Shown here piece by piece: positions 64 to 49,630 of a DNA stretch of 64,000 nt (positions are counted from its first letter, which is position 1; the number at the start of each line of letters is the position of its first letter). The stretch spans positions 1-64,000 of the forward strand of contig WYBW01000071.1 of the NCBI GenBank assembly GCA_011525685.1, read 5' to 3'. The DNA comes from Verrucomicrobiia bacterium (GTDB lineage: Bacteria; Verrucomicrobiota; Verrucomicrobiia; Limisphaerales; JADLHS01). Under the pieces are notes generated by a model, which did no database searches, was not told where the DNA came from, and saw only the letters and a program-made list of their open reading frames with translations. Made by a program: the position numbers and the translations under genes.

Positions 64-506
64 GTTGAGAGTTGAGGGTTGAAAGTTGAGGGTCAGACCG
101 ACTCCAAAGCCTTTCGCAGGCCACTCAACATGCGGCTTTGCTTTTCGGCGGCTTGATAGAGCTGCTGGTAATCTGCCTCGGAAAGGAAGCCTTGGTTGCG
201 TCCAATCGTGGCTTGCGAAACCACTTCAAAGACGCTGCCGGTGGCGATTTCCACGAAGCGGGCGTAGTCCACGCGGGAGGATCGCGAGCAGCCCTCAGCG
301 ATATTCGAGGAGATGGAAACGGCCGCACGGCGCATTTGATTGGTGAGGCCGAAACGTTCTTCGGCGGGAAAGTTCCGGGTGAGTTGATAGACCAGATCGG
401 CAAAGTGAATTGCCTCGTGCCAGGTTTCGAGTTTTTCAAAGTTGAACATGGGTTGCAGAGGTTGAGTGCCGCCGGTCATTTACCCCCTCAACTTTCAACT
501 CTCAAC
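64..506. mobile_element. IVS-like cassette 1: four-helix-bundle gene between inverted heptad-repeat arms
   Basis: A 443-bp unit bounded by inverted arms. The left arm (64-92) is four 7-nt units of the form gttgaRR plus g. The right arm (485-506) is the exact reverse complement with one 7-nt unit fewer (12 + 10 matching bases around the missing unit). The only gene inside is the minus-strand four-helix-bundle gene, whose stop codon directly abuts the left arm. The unit lies in the integron integrase gene. Known 23S rRNA intervening sequences also carry an S23 gene between inverted repeats, so I call it IVS-like. Mobility is inferred, not shown. Confidence 0.65.
93..449 (-). CDS. Four-helix-bundle protein (S23/IVP family)
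   Basis: Encodes 118 residues starting at [13 protein letters not shown]; a start 30 nt upstream is possible, but the family begins near FEKL. Family hallmarks are clear: F-KLE-W, the [20 protein letters not shown] segment and [12 protein letters not shown], followed by two further helices. These proteins are known as ORFs within 23S rRNA intervening sequences and resemble the Avd accessory protein of diversity-generating retroelements. They form small multimeric helical bundles thought to bind nucleic acid, but no enzymatic activity is established. The gene runs opposite to the integrase it interrupts and its stop codon touches the left repeat arm. No Shine-Dalgarno sequence is evident. Confidence 0.85.
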
Positions 507-9137: not shown

Positions 9138-10574
9138 TCAAAGCTGCCTGGTGAATTGCACTCCGAGACGAAGGAGTCTGCGCACGTCGGCGTCCGATCT
9201 GGCTTCCGCGTAAATGCGCAGGATCGGTTCGGTGCCCGAGCCGCGCAGCATCAGCCACGACCCATCTTGGGAAATGAACTTCACGCCGTCAAATGATTTT
9301 ATGTCGGCCACCGGCGAGCGCAGCAGCCGGGCGGGCGGATTCGCTTTGAGGTGCTCCATCAGTTCCCCTCGCTTTTCCAAGGGGAAATGCGTGTCAATCC
9401 GCCCGTAGCGATGCGGGCCGAATTCCTTGTCGAGGGCTTTGACGAGTTGATTGAGGCCCGTGCGTTCCGTGGCGAGCATTTCGAGCAACATCAAGCCGGC
9501 GGCGATGCCATCGCGCTCCGGGATGTGCCCCGGAAAGCCAATCCCGCCGCTTTCCTCCGCGCCAAGCAGGACGTCACCGTGAAGCATTTCCGCGCAGATG
9601 TATTTGAAGCCGACCCCGGTTTCCGTGAGCGTCAAACCGTGCGCGGCGCACATCTTGTCCACCATTGAAGTGGTGGTCAGCGCCTTGACGACGCGCCCCC
9701 GGCCGCGACGGTTGACCACCAGGTGGCGCAGCAGCAGGCAAATCAACTGGTGAGTGGTCAGGTAATTTCCGCGCCCATCCATTCCACCCACCCGGTCGGC
9801 GTCGCCGTCGGTCACCAGGCAAAGGTCGTGCGGGTGTTTTCGCAGAAAGGCCTGGCTGCGGGCGTAATTCTGCTCGACCGGTTCGGGGTTGATTCCGCCG
9901 AACAACGGATCATGCCGGCCATTGAGCGTGGTGACCTTGCAGGTGGTGCCGCGAAGAATTTGCTCGAAGCAACCCGCGCCCACGCCAAACAAAGCCTCGT
10001 GCGCAAAACGCAGCTTCGACTTCGCAATCAGTTTGAAGTCCACGAGTTGCTTGAGCGCCGCGAAATGGGTCGGTCGAATGTCCTCGATGACAATCCGCCC
10101 TGCGGCCACGGCCTCGGCCAGCTTTTCCGTCCGGACGGCGTTGCGGTCCACAAATCCCTCGACCGCCTGGCAGGTTTCCGGGTCGCTGGACCCGCCATAG
10201 TGGGACTTGAGTTTGAAGCCGTTGAAGATGGGTGGATTGTGACTGGCGGTGATCATCACTCCGCCAACGGCCGCTTGAGCATGGACGGCGTGCGACACGG
10301 AGGGTGTCGGGGTCGGCTCCGGCGTGAGCACCACGGCGAATCCATTGCCCGCGAACACCTCGGCCGCGCGTTGGGCAAATTGACCGGAGAAAAAGCGACG
10401 ATCATAGCCGACAACGACTTTCGCCACACGGCCGCAAATTTCGGATTTTGGATTTCGGCTTTCGGATTTCCAGTAATCCGCCGTCGCCTGCGCCACGCGA
10501 GCGACATTGGCGAAAGTGAAATCCTCCGCAATGACTGCCCGCCAGCCGTCGGTGCCGAATTTGATCTTTCCCAT
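9138..10574 (-). CDS. Phosphoglucomutase/phosphomannomutase family protein
   Basis: Encodes 478 residues. It has the alpha-D-phosphohexomutase architecture: N-terminal KFGTDGWRAVIAEDF, active-site serine loop MITASHNPP, metal loop VTDGDADRVGG, sugar loop GAEESGGIG and C-terminal phosphate loop LRGSGTEPILRIY. It interconverts hexose 1- and 6-phosphates; glucose versus mannose cannot be decided here. Residues about 36-46 (SESRNPKSEI) are encoded by a 7-nt-period repeat and interrupt the normal N-terminal fold region, between helix 1 and the VVVGYDRRF strand. rpe follows 28 nt downstream-side on the same strand group. Confidence 0.88.
   Translation of the reverse strand: MGKIKFGTDGWRAVIAEDFTFANVARVAQATADYWKSESRNPKSEICGRVAKVVVGYDRRFFSGQFAQRAAEVFAGNGFAVVLTPEPTPTPSVSHAVHAQAAVGGVMITASHNPPIFNGFKLKSHYGGSSDPETCQAVEGFVDRNAVRTEKLAEAVAAGRIVIEDIRPTHFAALKQLVDFKLIAKSKLRFAHEALFGVGAGCFEQILRGTTCKVTTLNGRHDPLFGGINPEPVEQNYARSQAFLRKHPHDLCLVTDGDADRVGGMDGRGNYLTTHQLICLLLRHLVVNRRGRGRVVKALTTTSMVDKMCAAHGLTLTETGVGFKYICAEMLHGDVLLGAEESGGIGFPGHIPERDGIAAGLMLLEMLATERTGLNQLVKALDKEFGPHRYGRIDTHFPLEKRGELMEHLKANPPARLLRSPVADIKSFDGVKFISQDGSWLMLRGSGTEPILRIYAEARSDADVRRLLRLGVQFTRQL
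10436..10470 (-). repeat. In-frame heptad array inside the phosphohexomutase gene
   Basis: Exactly five heptamers (35 bp) of the form gaaatcc or close variants on the minus strand. They are translated as part of SESRNPKSEI in the hexomutase. Same 7-nt period as the cassette arms. Homologous enzymes go directly from helix 1 to the conserved strand, so this is an insertion that left the gene open. Confidence 0.7.
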
Positions 10575-22625: not shown

Positions 22626-23512
22626 AAGCGCAACCAACCTCTGGCCTTCTGGTTCGTCCGCGGTCAAGTCAAGGTGAATACCTTCGGGTTTCGCCCGAGA
22701 CCGCCCGTTGGGAGCACCTTCACTTTGCGGCGCGCCGTATGAAGCATGGTGAGCATTGGCAGGCGAACACCGGAGCATTCGAATACGGCCTGGTCCTGCT
22801 CGGTGGCGTTTGCCGTGTCGAGTCTTCCCGGGGCAACTGGAACCAGATTGGCCGGCGGCCCGATGTGTTTTCGGGAATGCCCTACGCCCTTTATTTGCCC
22901 AAGGAAACCCGCTTCACCGTAACGGCGTTGAGCGATCAACTGGACCTCGCTTGCGGTTGGTGCAAATCGTCGGGCGATTATCCGCCGCAACTCGTCACGC
23001 CCGAGCGGGTGGCAATGGAGATTCGTGGGGGTGGAAACGCCACGCGCCAGATCAACTCGATTTTCCCGCCGGGCTTCAACTGTCACCGGCTGGTCGCCGT
23101 GGAAGTCTATACGCCGCCCGGAAACTGGAGCAGCTATCCGCCGCACAAGCATGACGTGCATCGCGTTGACGCCACGGGCCAGCTCATTGAGGCCGATCTG
23201 GAAGAGATTTATTTCTACAAGCACGACAAACCGCACGGCTACGCCATCCAGCGAGTTTACACCCCGGACTCGCATCTCGACGAGGTGATCGTGGCGCGCG
23301 ACGGCGACGTTGTCCTCGTGCCGGAAGGTTACCATCCCGTGGCCTCCGCCCACGGTTACACAACCTACTATCTCAACTTTCTGGCGGGCAGCGCACAATC
23401 ACTGGCGAACACCGACGATCCCGACCATGCGTGGATCAAGCAAACGTGGACGGACAAAGATCCCCGCGTTCCGGTTGTGACGCCAGCGATGGAGATTGAA
23501 ATTGAAAATTGA
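22622..23512 (+). CDS. iolB: 5-deoxy-glucuronate isomerase
   Basis: Encodes 296 residues. KduI/IolB bicupin family: GAFEYGLVLLGG, YALYLPKETRFTVTA, then the C-terminal metal site SSYPPHKHD, EEIYFYKHDKPHGYAIQRVY and VPEGYHPVASAHGY. It converts 5-deoxy-glucuronate to 5-dehydro-2-deoxy-gluconate. The start overlaps iolJ by 4 nt (translational coupling). The last residues, MEIEIEN plus stop, are encoded by the left heptad arm of cassette 2, so the natural C-terminus was probably replaced by that insertion. Confidence 0.93.
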   Translation: MKAQPTSGLLVRPRSSQGEYLRVSPETARWEHLHFAARRMKHGEHWQANTGAFEYGLVLLGGVCRVESSRGNWNQIGRRPDVFSGMPYALYLPKETRFTVTALSDQLDLACGWCKSSGDYPPQLVTPERVAMEIRGGGNATRQINSIFPPGFNCHRLVAVEVYTPPGNWSSYPPHKHDVHRVDATGQLIEADLEEIYFYKHDKPHGYAIQRVYTPDSHLDEVIVARDGDVVLVPEGYHPVASAHGYTTYYLNFLAGSAQSLANTDDPDHAWIKQTWTDKDPRVPVVTPAMEIEIEN

Positions 23513-23971
23513 GCTTTGAAAAATGGAAACTGAAAATTGCTCCGCGCGGACTGGAGAATCATGACCTCGGAGGAACTATCGAATCGGCTTTGGCAATGCG
23601 CGGCACGTGTTGGAAAGGCGGTGGATGCTTTGCCAAACACGCGTCTGGGACGGCATGTTGCCGGACAACTCGTTCGTTGTGACACTGCTGCGCCACCGAA
23701 TTACGATGAAGGCTGCGCCGCTGAAAGCCGTGCGGACTTCATTCACAAGCTCGCCATCGCGCTAAAGGAACTCAAGGAAACCAGAGGCTGGCTGCACTTC
23801 GTCGTTATTGCTGAACTTCTCCAAGCACGGCGGATTTCGCCGCTCTCCGAGGAGGCCGACGCGCTGTGCAGAATCGTTGCCAAGTCCATTATTACCGCCA
23901 AGGCGAATCGGCGCGGTCCGCCGCGCGCCGAAATTTGACATTTCCATTTTTCAATTCGCAATCTGCAATTC
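23492..23971. mobile_element. IVS-like cassette 2: four-helix-bundle gene between inverted heptad-repeat arms
   Basis: A 480-bp unit between iolB and iolC. The left arm (23492-23540) is seven exact heptamers such as aaattga and aaaatgg. The right arm (23930-23971) is six heptamers in opposite orientation (gaaattt, ccatttt and so on). The best inverted match is a 14-mer, ttgaaaaatggaaa. The left arm contains the iolB stop; the right arm contains the stop of the four-helix gene and ends 3 nt before the iolC ATG. Layout and size match cassette 1 although the repeat sequence differs. Confidence 0.6.
23561..23938 (+). CDS. Four-helix-bundle protein (S23/IVP family)
   Basis: Encodes 125 residues from ATG at 23561, preceded by a ctggaga ribosome-binding site; a TTG start 24 nt upstream is possible. 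The family pattern is clear: LPNTRLGRHVAGQLVR, then NYDEGCAAESRADFIHKL and ALKELKETRGWL. The usual SGTSVGANYREA segment has diverged to CDTAAPPNYDEG. No known role in inositol catabolism. It is co-oriented with the iol genes and so is probably co-transcribed. It is a different subfamily from the copy at 93-449 (longer spacing, KELKET motif), which suggests independent acquisition. Confidence 0.82.
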   Translation: MTSEELSNRLWQCAARVGKAVDALPNTRLGRHVAGQLVRCDTAAPPNYDEGCAAESRADFIHKLAIALKELKETRGWLHFVVIAELLQARRISPLSEEADALCRIVAKSIITAKANRRGPPRAEI

Positions 23972-45847: not shown

Positions 45848-48800
45848 TCAGCTCTGGTAATTCTCCATCCCCACGCACGAGCAGACCGGATTGCGATCGC
45901 CGAAGACGTTGTCCACGCGGGCGACGGGCGGCCAGAATTTGTAATCGCGCAGATTCTTGACCGGGAACGCGGCGGCTTCGCGGCTGTAAGGGCGATTCCA
46001 ATAGTCGCTGGCGATCTGGTCGGCGGTGTGCGGAGCGTTCTTGAGCACATTGTTCTTCGCGTCGGCTGCGCCGGTTTCCACGGCGGTCATTTCCGCGTGG
46101 ATGGAAATCATCGCGTCGCAGAAGCGATCCAATTCGTACTTCGATTCGCTTTCGGTGGGTTCGACCATGAGCGTGCCGGCGACGGGCCACGAGAGCGTCG
46201 GCGCGTGAAAGCCGTAATCCATGAGGCGCTTGGCGACGTCCTCGGCGGTGGTGGCCTTGAACGCGCGCAGGTCGAGGATACATTCGTGCGCGACCAGGTT
46301 GTGGTTCTTGTAGAGCGTCGGGAAATGCTTTTCGAGCCGCTTGGAAATGTAATTCGCGTTGAGGATGGCGAACTTGGTGGCTTCGGTGAGGCCGCTCGTG
46401 CCCATCAGGGCGATATACATCCAAGAGATCGGGAGGATGCTCGCGCTACCCCACGGCGCGGCAGAAACCGCCCCGATGGGACTTTCGCCGCCGAGGTTCA
46501 CGACGTTGTGGCCGGGTAAAAACTCGACGAGATGTTCCGCCACGCCAATCGGCCCGACGCCCGGTCCGCCGCCGCCGTGCGGGATGCAAAAGGTTTTGTG
46601 CAGGTTCAGATGGCAGACGTCCGCGCCGATGAAGCCGGGGCTGGTGAGGCCGACTTGCGCGTTCATGTTCGCGCCGTCCATGTAAACCTGGCCGCCGACG
46701 GCGTGGATGATGTCGCAAATCTCGCGGATGGTTTCCTCGAACACACCGTGCGTGCTGGGATAAGTGACCATGAGGCAGGCCAGCGTGTCTTTATGGGCTT
46801 CTGCTTTGGCTTTGAGGTCCGCCACATCTATGTTGCCGGATGAGTCACATGCGACGGATAGGACTTTCATGCCGGCCATCACGGCGCTTGCGGGGTTTGT
46901 GCCGTGGGCTGAGGACGGAATCAGGCAGACGTTCCTATGGGACTCATTGCGCGATTCGTGATACGCGCGGATGACGAGCAAGCCGGCGTATTCGCCCTGC
47001 GAACCGGCGTTGGGCTGGAGCGAAATGCCGGCGAACCCGGAGATCTCCGCGAGCCAGGTTTCGAGCTGCTCAAACATCTTCTGGTAACCGCGCGTCTGTT
47101 TGATGGGCGCGAACGGATGAATCTTCGCGAACTCGGGCCACGAGACTGGGAACATCTCGGCGGCGGCGTTGAGCTTCATGGTGCAGGAGCCGAGCGGAAT
47201 CATCGAGGCCGTGAGCGAGAGGTCGCGCGATTCGAGCCGCTTGATGTAGCGGAGCATCTCGGTCTCGGAGTGGTAGCGGTTGAAGACGGGGTGCGCGAGA
47301 AATGAAGAGTGACGAATGACGAATGACGAATGGGCCGAGTGACTCTCATTAGCACCGGGCTTTAGCCCGGTGTTGGGCGTAGCGGAGGTGCAAACCGTTT
47401 CAACGGTTTGCTGTGCTGACGGGGAAGCCGTTGAAACGGCTGAACTTTCGTCGTTCGATTCAACACCGGGCTGAAGCCTGGTGTTAATGAGAGCCGAAGC
47501 GATGGTCGCGGAGAGTTCCTCCACGGAAAAGCTCGCGGGTTTGTCGCTGTTGAAGATTTGCCAGAGTTCCGCAATGTCGGCGGCGCTTGTCGCTTCGTCG
47601 AGCGAAGTGCCGATGGTCGCGTCGTCAATCGCGCGGAGGTTGATGCGATGTGCTTCGGCGATCTTGAGGATATCGGTGGACTTCTTGTCGCCGAGATTGA
47701 TCTTCAACGTGTCGAAGCGCGGTGTGGTAGCAACTTCATAGCCGAGGCGTTCGAGGCCAGCAGCGAGAACTTCCGTCAGCGTGTGGACACGCTGCGCGAT
47801 CTTCTTCAGCCCTTCCGCGCCATGATAGCAGGCGTAGAGCGACGCCATGTTGGCGAGGAGCGCCTGGGCCGTGCAAATGTTGCTGGTGGCCTTCTCGCGG
47901 CGGATGTGTTGCTCGCGCGTGCCGAGCGCGAGGCGCAGGGCCGGCCTGCCGCGCGCGTCCTTGGACACCCCGACTAGGCGACCGGGCATCTGACGTTTGA
48001 ATTCATCGCGCGTGGCGAAGAACGCGGCGTGCGGTCCACCATAGCCAAGTGGCACGCCGAAGCGTTGCGCGCTGCCGACGGCGATGTCCGCACCAAATTC
48101 GCCCGGCGGCTTGATGAGTGTGATCGCTAGCAGATCGGTCGCAACGGTGACGAGTGCGCCCGCGGCGTGGGCTTTGGCGATGAACGGCGAGTAATCGTTG
48201 ATCGCGCCGAAAGTGTCGGGGCATTGAACGAGCGCTCCGAAGATCTTGTCGGAGAAGGCGAAGGTCTCGTGATTGCCGATGATGGCTTCGATGCCCAGCG
48301 CTTTGGCGCGGGCGGCGACCACTTCGATGGTTTGCGGGTGGCAAGTTTTGGAGATGAGGAAGACGTTGCGACCGTCTTTGAGGCGGTGGGACATGGTCAT
48401 GGCCTCGGCGGCGGCGGTCGCCTCGTCGAGCATGGAGGCGTTGGCGATATCGAGCGCGGTGAGGTCGGCGACCATCGTCTGGAAGTTCAGCAACGCTTCG
48501 AGGCGGCCTTGGGAGATCTCCGCCTGGTAGGGGGTGTATTGGGTGTACCAACCGGGGTTTTCGAGCACGTTGCGCTGAATGACCGGGGGCGTGATGCAGT
48601 CGTAGTAGCCTTGTCCGATGAAGGAGCGAAAAACCTGGTTTTGGGCGGCGATGAATTTCAGCTCGCGCAGCGCGTCAGCCTCCGATTTCGGAGCGGGCAG
48701 GTTCAGCGGTTGGGGCAGCCGAATGCCTTGTGGCACTGCGGCGTCCGCCAGTGCATCCACGGACTCGTAGCCGATGACCTTGAGCATGTCCGCGGTTTCG

Positions 48801-48889
48801 ACCGCGTTCGGGCCGATGTGGCGGCGGACAAACTGGTCCGGGTGAGCGAGCGGGTCAGGATTAGGCGTCTGCGTTTCCGAAAAAGACAT
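45848..48889 (-). CDS. gcvP: Glycine dehydrogenase (decarboxylating), P-protein, with in-frame insertion
   Basis: Encodes 1013 residues from [13 protein letters not shown]; an upstream ATG adds 46 unsupported residues. Both homologous halves are present: N-terminal [17 protein letters not shown] and [20 protein letters not shown]-terminal [16 protein letters not shown], the glycine-rich PLP region with [16 protein letters not shown] (Schiff-base Lys), and [19 protein letters not shown]. It decarboxylates glycine and passes aminomethyl to H-protein. Residues about 466-530 are encoded by a palindromic element plus a heptad array (47304-47493), at the linker between the halves; this explains the excess over the usual 950-960 residues. 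gcvT and gcvH are not in the window. Confidence 0.95.
47304..47331 (+). repeat. Heptad array at the edge of the gcvP insertion
   Basis: Four heptamers, gaagagt then gacgaat three times. On the coding strand it reads as SFVIRHSSF. It is next to the palindromic element and shares the 7-nt period of the other arrays. Confidence 0.75.
47343..47493. mobile_element. MITE-like palindromic element translated within gcvP
   Basis: A 151-bp element whose ends (47343-47375 and 47461-47493) are 33-nt inverted repeats with only three mismatches, outer end ctctcatta. Each end is itself a hairpin (caccgggct / agcccggtg). Two more hairpins lie inside: 47391-47410 (caaaccgtt / aacggtttg) and 47426-47441 (agccgtt / aacggct). 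No transposase is encoded, so it would depend on one elsewhere, perhaps a REP-associated tyrosine transposase. Together with the flanking heptad array it leaves the gcvP frame open. Confidence 0.75.
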
Positions 48890-49009
48890 GCGGGGGAAAT
48901 TAGGTTTGGCCCGGAGCAAAGCAAGTTGGATTTGGTTTGGTGACGCGTAGAATTGAGCTTCTTGTTGCTTTTTCGTGGCCAAACAGGCGTAGCGAATTAC
49001 ACTTGCGTC

Positions 49010-49630
49010 ATGTTGAGTCAGCGGCAACGGGCGGTGGTGTGGGCGGCGGTGGTGCTCGTCGGAATCTGGGCACTGGCGGGGGCGGGATTCCTTGTTGCGC
49101 GGAATGCCAAGGTGACAGCCGAGAAGGTGCGGGCTTATGTTGAATCCGTGGACTTGGCGAAGCTGTCAGTTGTCGAACGTGCCAGGGCGCTTCAGGAACT
49201 GGCGGACAAGCTCAACCGGCTCTCTCGCGAAGAACGGCAGCGGCTGCGCCTGGATCGGACCGCTTTTGCCTGGTTTGAGGAAATGACGGAGGAGGAGAAG
49301 GGACAGTTTATCGAGGCCACAATGCCAACGGGCTTCAAACAGATGATCTCCGCCTTCGAGGAAATGCCGGAGGAGCGAAGGCGCCGCGCGGTGGACAATG
49401 CGCTGCGGAGTTTGCGCGAGGCCAGCAACAGGATGCAGGGCGGTGCAGCCGTAGTGGGGGTAACGAATCCGCCGCCCATCAGCGAGGAACTGGAAGCCAG
49501 GGTGCGCACGATCGGGCTCAAGACGTTTTACAGCCAGAGTTCCGCGCAGACGAAGGCCGAACTGGCCCCGGTGCTGGAAGAGTTGCAGCGGGTGATGGAG
49601 ATGGGCGGGGGAAGGTATCACGGGAGATGA
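49010..49630 (+). CDS. Membrane-anchored protein of unknown function
   Basis: Encodes 206 residues from ATG at 49010. One N-terminal membrane segment ([21 protein letters not shown]) is followed by a charged helical domain ([40 protein letters not shown], and [20 protein letters not shown]) and a short Glu/Gln-rich tail. This looks like a periplasm-facing coiled region anchored at the inner membrane. I do not recognise a family. Divergent from gcvP; its stop overlaps the frame of the next prepilin-like gene. Confidence 0.7.

Follow-up and report, generated by a model that had tools for sequence, protein, structure and literature searches.

How does a run of seven-base repeats come to lie, in frame, inside the gene of a conserved enzyme? 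The question is raised by a phosphohexomutase gene of the phosphoglucosamine/phosphomannomutase type (9138–10574, minus strand, 478 aa) in the window analyzed here, a stretch of 64,000 nucleotides from a Verrucomicrobiia bacterium whose genome, G000, belongs to the set of 57 genomes of relatives used throughout.

The array and its host enzyme

The hexomutase array is located at 10438–10470 on the minus strand and encodes KSESRNPKSEI, residues 36–46 of the enzyme. Read on the coding strand, from 10470 to 10438, it consists of AAATCCG, AAAGCCG, AAATCCA, AAATCCG and AAATT. The original prediction had described five exact heptamers in a 35-bp run; Tandem Repeats Finder returns instead a period of 7 with 4.7 degenerate copies and 84% matches, the array measures 33 bp, and its self-match score in our period-7 scan is 18. 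Since 33 bp are exactly 11 codons, the compensating change of frame that had been thought necessary is not needed, and a second mutation of that kind in the gene is ruled out. The array is not palindromic by itself, it has no inverted partner within 250 bp, and no target-site duplication could be seen by eye in the alignments of the hexomutase or of the array sites of G000 and G001.

The protein matches phosphoglucosamine/phosphomannomutase families across its full length, and TASHNP, DGDADR, EESGG and RGSGTEP, which we take to be the active-site motifs, are placed in invariant or near-invariant columns of an alignment of 30 orthologues. The view of a heptad run inside an otherwise normal phosphohexomutase gene is thus borne out, the period-7 array being present and the enzyme motifs intact. 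In the AlphaFold2 model (mean pLDDT 85.6) a helix spans residues 21–40, a loop 41–49 and a strand 50–57, and the alignment to the solved homologue 1tuo, presumably a Thermus protein, leaves a gap of about 10 residues at the array segment; as modelled, the segment is part of a variable helix-strand connection. A surface loop, which had been put forward as a point to check, agrees with residues 41–49 of the model and with the 1tuo gap found there, but not with residues 36–40, which extend helix 1, so that the array segment is not loop throughout.

A hexomutase match exists in all 57 genomes, and 30 loci were aligned. The spacing between W35 and GYDRR was measured in 29 of these 30 sequences, the remaining row, L056, showing nothing unusual when aligned. 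It amounts to 13 residues in 27 of them and to 19 in two, namely those of G000 and of G013, a genome of another family and the sole other orthologue with six additional residues. In both, the extra residues coincide with a period-7 run at codons 35–45, and the words are different: that of G000 is AAATCCG, with a score of 18, and that of G013 is GCGGAAC/TCGGAGC-like, with a score of 15. Different words at the same codons imply that one loop took two heptad arrays in two lineages. Conservation of the array segment by descent is ruled out by the 13-residue loop of the 27 sequences; homologues that lack the repeat were examined for a retained copy of the segment and none was found, G013 carrying its own, different heptads. 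Among close relatives, the in-frame gain adjoining a conserved strand, as it had been described, is found in this gene only. The net gain over the orthologues is 6 codons (18 bp), and from an array of 33 bp it follows that about five codons, SANPV-like, were replaced. The hexomutase of G036 (L053) has a separate insert of 12 residues, SPRGVAGLTPPG, whose GLTPPG is also found after the array in an RsmB-like protein (L011).

Dispersal, strand and frame of the arrays

When G000 was searched with the pattern TCCRAAWYCCRAAWYCCRAA, allowing up to 2 mismatches and counting overlapping matches, 94 forward and 90 reverse matches (184 in all) were obtained, and the reversed pattern, used as control, gave 0. 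Over 864 kb of the same genome, the window included, we counted 34 period-7 runs with a score of at least 13, where an order-2 Markov control gave 1, and a strict penalty left 14 arrays against 0. This excess, together with the empty reversed control, indicates that the hexomutase array is not a product of chance. With a stricter word, AAATCCG matches are present in 30 of the 57 genomes, 1 to 139 in each. Exact AAATCCG-array matches occur in at least 119 stretches of the public genome collection, the phyla among the matches listed being Verrucomicrobia, Acidobacteria, Planctomycetes, Bacteroidetes, Chloroflexi, Deltaproteobacteria, Armatimonadetes and candidate phyla. Arrays with a neighbour at 25–125 bp are mostly inverted pairs and lie mostly outside genes; in the acidobacterial record SZAS-13 (L229, 5893–7645) inverted AAATCCG pairs recur between putative successive tRNA genes. 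In several proteins (L275, L280, L284, L293 and L306) KSEIRNPKSEI is followed by a common DQSLLTSAAT-like segment, judging by which the array looks there as if it were within a larger repeat.

Unpaired arrays were surveyed in G000, G001, G036 and G054, 74 in number, with a strict coding test based on a hexamer model. By this test 40 are located inside genes, in 31 host-gene clusters, a sample that is no random draw, many loci having been taken from the highest-ranking pattern matches. In every one of the 40 the sense strand carries AAATCCG and reads KSEIRNPKSEI or a variant, and in 38 of them the single array is 26–36 bp long, the other two measuring 45 and 54 bp; the frame of a same-strand gene is shifted by none of the 74. 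That heptad arrays occur without a four-helix gene as neighbour, and that they occur inside many proteins, is corroborated, as originally proposed; the large dispersed family with its strong strand bias, and the arrays flanking most four-helix genes, had escaped that prediction. NCBIfam names were assigned to the hosts in a scan of nine array-bearing proteins, one of which had no match; they include LarE, LeuRS, RsmB, HypF, a PcrA/UvrD-type helicase and a PknB-like kinase. The hexamer model behind this coding test is crude and placed the hexomutase array itself in the 'one side coding' class. On a relaxed reading, antisense arrays turn up where genes start, and at least one (L282) lies within a gene, presumably that of an RluD-like protein from its motif. 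Among paired arrays the strict test placed 2 of 45 inside genes, both antisense. In loci from multiple phyla, classified by a simple long-ORF test, 49 of the 113 unpaired arrays are sense and 6 antisense, with 58 left unclassified, and the corresponding numbers for the 101 paired arrays are 17, 18 and 66. A preference for one codon phase was dropped, as the bias in the four-genome set (29:9:2) is absent from the multi-phylum set (20:15:14).

Since 7 is not divisible by 3 and neither strand of AAATCCG contains a stop codon, all frames of a strand yield a single cyclic heptapeptide, which is KSEIRNP for one strand and FRISDFG for its complement. From the Kyte-Doolittle residue values the mean hydropathy is about −1.9 for KSEIRNP against +0.1 for FRISDFG. 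On peptide composition, the hydrophilic KSEIRNP would fit a surface loop and FRISDFG would not, and this hydrophilicity may account for the strand preference; alternatively, the bias could arise in the copying itself and not from selection.

The window contains a second in-frame run, with CATTCGT on the coding strand, at 47303–47332 (minus strand). It closes a long linker insert of ORF 45848–49027 (minus strand), which we take to be glycine dehydrogenase-like. It is the same kind of feature as the hexomutase array, built from a different unit, and the long linker holds palindromic repeats besides it.

Recurrent loops and four-helix genes

Two conserved genes allow the words at one site to be compared between genomes. 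LarE is present in 51 of the 57 genomes, and its loop VRVRHHE...ARIEV, read in 30 orthologues, ranges from 7 to 39 residues and carries a period-7 run (score of at least 10) in 10 of them. The word is AAATCCG in G000, G001 and G036, GTTGCAG-type in G002 and G021, and other heptads in G034, G011, G017, G028 and G050; the loops of G002, G021, G034 and G011 have two arrays in inverted arrangement. Genome-wide, AAATCCG matches number 102 in G000, 56 in G001 and 139 in G036, and GTTGCAG matches 1, 2 and 5, respectively; G002 has 8 of the former and 21 of the latter, and G021 has 1 and 16. In these five scored genomes the word in the LarE loop tracks the common word of the genome and not the site, which makes copying from other arrays of the genome likelier than local slippage. 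The reversed GTTGCAG pattern, run as control, gave 73 matches in G026, 25 in G048 and 78 in G051, where another heptad word is probably abundant. The second gene, coding for a protein of 466 aa with no NCBIfam match, has arrays at one loop in 6 of 25 readable orthologues out of 30, with at least four different words; AAATCCG is the word in G000 and G036, and G001, a congener of G000, lacks an array there. One array, at C176:311207, is common to G000 and G001, the copy of G001 being the more regular, and so are two arrays in the HypF gene, from which it follows that some arrays are inherited and not fresh.

Heptad arrays are also associated with four-helix bundle genes of family TIGR02436, which is grouped with the 23S rRNA intervening-sequence proteins. 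G000 has 11 of these genes, two of them identified in the window by family match. The first (105–422, minus strand) is adjoined by a GTTGAGA array at 64–89 (plus strand), which is not next to the hexomutase, and on its other side by an inverted array at 488–506 (minus strand). The second (23588–23896, plus strand) has a heptad-like array on the left, at 23499–23539 (plus strand), and an inverted one on the right, at 23930–23969 (minus strand). By an empty-site comparison, G001 lacks this cassette of gene and arrays, 23499–23969, at the orthologous intergenic site. When 40 TIGR02436 genes (11 in G000 and 29 in other genomes) were compared with 3000 random places, a period-7 run was found at no more than 200 bp from a gene end in 33, against 2.6% of the random places, and at both ends in 24, against 0.07%. 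For 23 of the 24, the best match between the two arrays is the inverted one, and the words differ between loci. The observation suggests that the heptad arrays are the ends of a mobile four-helix cassette. In G024, at L376 1101–2105, a four-helix gene is placed between arrays of about 240 and 220 bp, inverted and with a matched word.

Across the 57 genomes AAATCCG matches correlate with TIGR02436 copies (Spearman 0.47, p = 2e-4), a value that we do not take as proof because the genomes share ancestry and differ in how large and how complete they are. G054 has 75 AAATCCG matches and 1 TIGR02436 gene, and 18 genomes with TIGR02436 have zero matches. No four-helix gene stands beside the hexomutase array, the nearest ones in the window being those at 105–422 and 23588–23896; with none adjoining, a link of this copy with such a neighbour is ruled out.

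Origin of the hexomutase array and its relation to known repeats

Taking these results together, we consider that the 33-bp run is probably an in-frame copy of the dispersed AAATCCG heptad repeat, tolerated in the helix-strand loop of the hexomutase. In this model, an AAATCCG array would have been copied into the gene, taking the place of about five codons in the helix-to-strand loop. Copies would arrive in either orientation, and those inside genes would survive if the loop is tolerant, the frame is kept and the coding strand reads AAATCCG. Their source would be other arrays of the same genome, and among related mobile forms the best candidate would be the TIGR02436 cassettes with inverted heptad ends. 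It counts against simple insertion that the array substitutes for codons, with no clean addition, both in the hexomutase and in the C176 gene. An enzyme encoded by the element was not found either.

The strongest competing explanation, which we nevertheless consider unlikely, is that the array was born locally, from a loop that already resembled the heptad and grew in place by replication slippage in the manner of microsatellites. Heptamer repeats are generally over-represented in bacteria, according to PMC4692102 and PMC6344855, and the S-A-N-P of the relatives' loop is near to the central S-R-N-P of the array. However, the 27 array-free loops are not unusually heptad-like, a mean of 41% of windows of the same gene scoring as high (52% for the loop of G001), and for this reason a local seed with slippage was rejected as the main cause. 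The dependence of the LarE words on the genome and a net gain of 18 bp, no multiple of 7, also argue against it.

Improbable too, and more so, is that a larger element, either a hairpin pair or a four-helix cassette, inserted here and later lost all but the array. The LarE loop, holding an in-frame inverted pair in some genomes and a single array in others, and the four-helix genes, 24 of 40 with arrays at both ends and 23 of these inverted, would be consistent with such a history, but the hexomutase array lacks an inverted partner inside 250 bp, and the tight length of single in-gene arrays, 26–36 bp in 38 of 40, is unlike the outcome of random deletion. Slightly less credit still is due to the proposal that the peptide itself is useful, as a flexible or binding loop, and that selection repeatedly places KSEIRNPKSEI in loops: peptide and strand are near-invariant across unrelated proteins and the same loops are struck repeatedly in different genera, yet other genomes carry unrelated heptapeptides in those loops, most orthologues are without the segment, and the inverted hairpin pairs of the same arrays are mostly outside genes. 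An artefact of assembly or sequencing, conceivable in a draft of 199 contigs, can practically be dismissed, since the array is in frame, codon-aligned and bordered by normal gene sequence on both sides, G000 and G001 hold common arrays at orthologous sites, and exact arrays also occur in records titled complete genome or chromosome.

The copied-repeat origin invites comparison with known repeat classes, the nearest precedents being the in-frame Rickettsia elements and the dispersed heptamer repeats. The STRR of cyanobacteria are dispersed heptanucleotide repeats, and the REP, REPIN and MITE families are short dispersed repeats, often in inverted pairs. Like the latter, heptad arrays are short, dispersed and often found as inverted pairs; unlike MITEs and REPINs, they are composed of heptads, and the hexomutase array has neither terminal inverted repeats nor a visible target-site duplication. 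The cassettes of TIGR02436 have flanking units that vary by locus, and the hexomutase array is without a four-helix gene. Among heptanucleotide repeats, TAACTGA is known from Beggiatoaceae, cyanobacteria and Bacteroidetes, where, according to PMC4679880, it is mainly intergenic, with few copies in reading frames and the forward orientation limited by its stops. GGGAATC of Xanthomonas and GGGGATT of Nostoc are likewise given as mainly intergenic in PMC4692102, as are dispersed bacterial heptamer repeats in PMC6344855. AAATCCG arrays resemble the TAACTGA, GGGAATC and STRR kind in their tandem 7-bp units, present in 2 to a few copies, their many sites and wide, patchy distribution, but differ in being often inside conserved enzymes (40 of 74 unpaired arrays by the strict test), and, unlike TAACTGA, AAATCCG is stop-free on both strands, so that stop codons cannot account for the strand bias inside genes. 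The Rickettsia palindromic elements (RPEs) are, according to the review PMC2229807, palindromes of 105–146 bp confined to one genus, which are tolerated in frame in conserved protein genes and one of which is borne by a guanylate kinase that is still active. As with RPE and MITE insertions, AAATCCG arrays are dispersed and in frame in conserved protein genes; unlike RPEs, the array is a 33-bp tandem, non-palindromic and strand-biased, with a unit that varies between genomes. In the open-access papers that were searched, we found no description of the AAATCCG array or its peptide, nor, for Verrucomicrobia, of heptameric tandem repeats or of a four-helix protein with a tandem repeat.

A broader and tentative possibility, doubtful as it stands, is that single 33-bp arrays, hairpin pairs and TIGR02436 cassettes are three forms of one mobile class bounded by heptad arrays. 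The word would be interchangeable from element to element and from genome to genome, yet matched at the two ends of each element, and loops of housekeeping enzymes would be recurrent landing sites.

Near-identical arrays are thus found in ordinary genes across several phyla, nearly always in the orientation that gives the hydrophilic peptide. Several features make the question of their origin testable: a given enzyme loop bears arrays in more than one lineage, with different words; the word tracks the genome; inside genes almost every copy has one orientation, although both are free of stops; and four-helix genes have inverted arrays with a matched word at both ends. Array copying would be a route for the repeated gain of near-identical loop peptides in unrelated enzymes and, if the three forms do belong to one class, the abundance of 7-bp repeats among prokaryotes, for long without an explanation, would have its cause in the ends of a mobile element.
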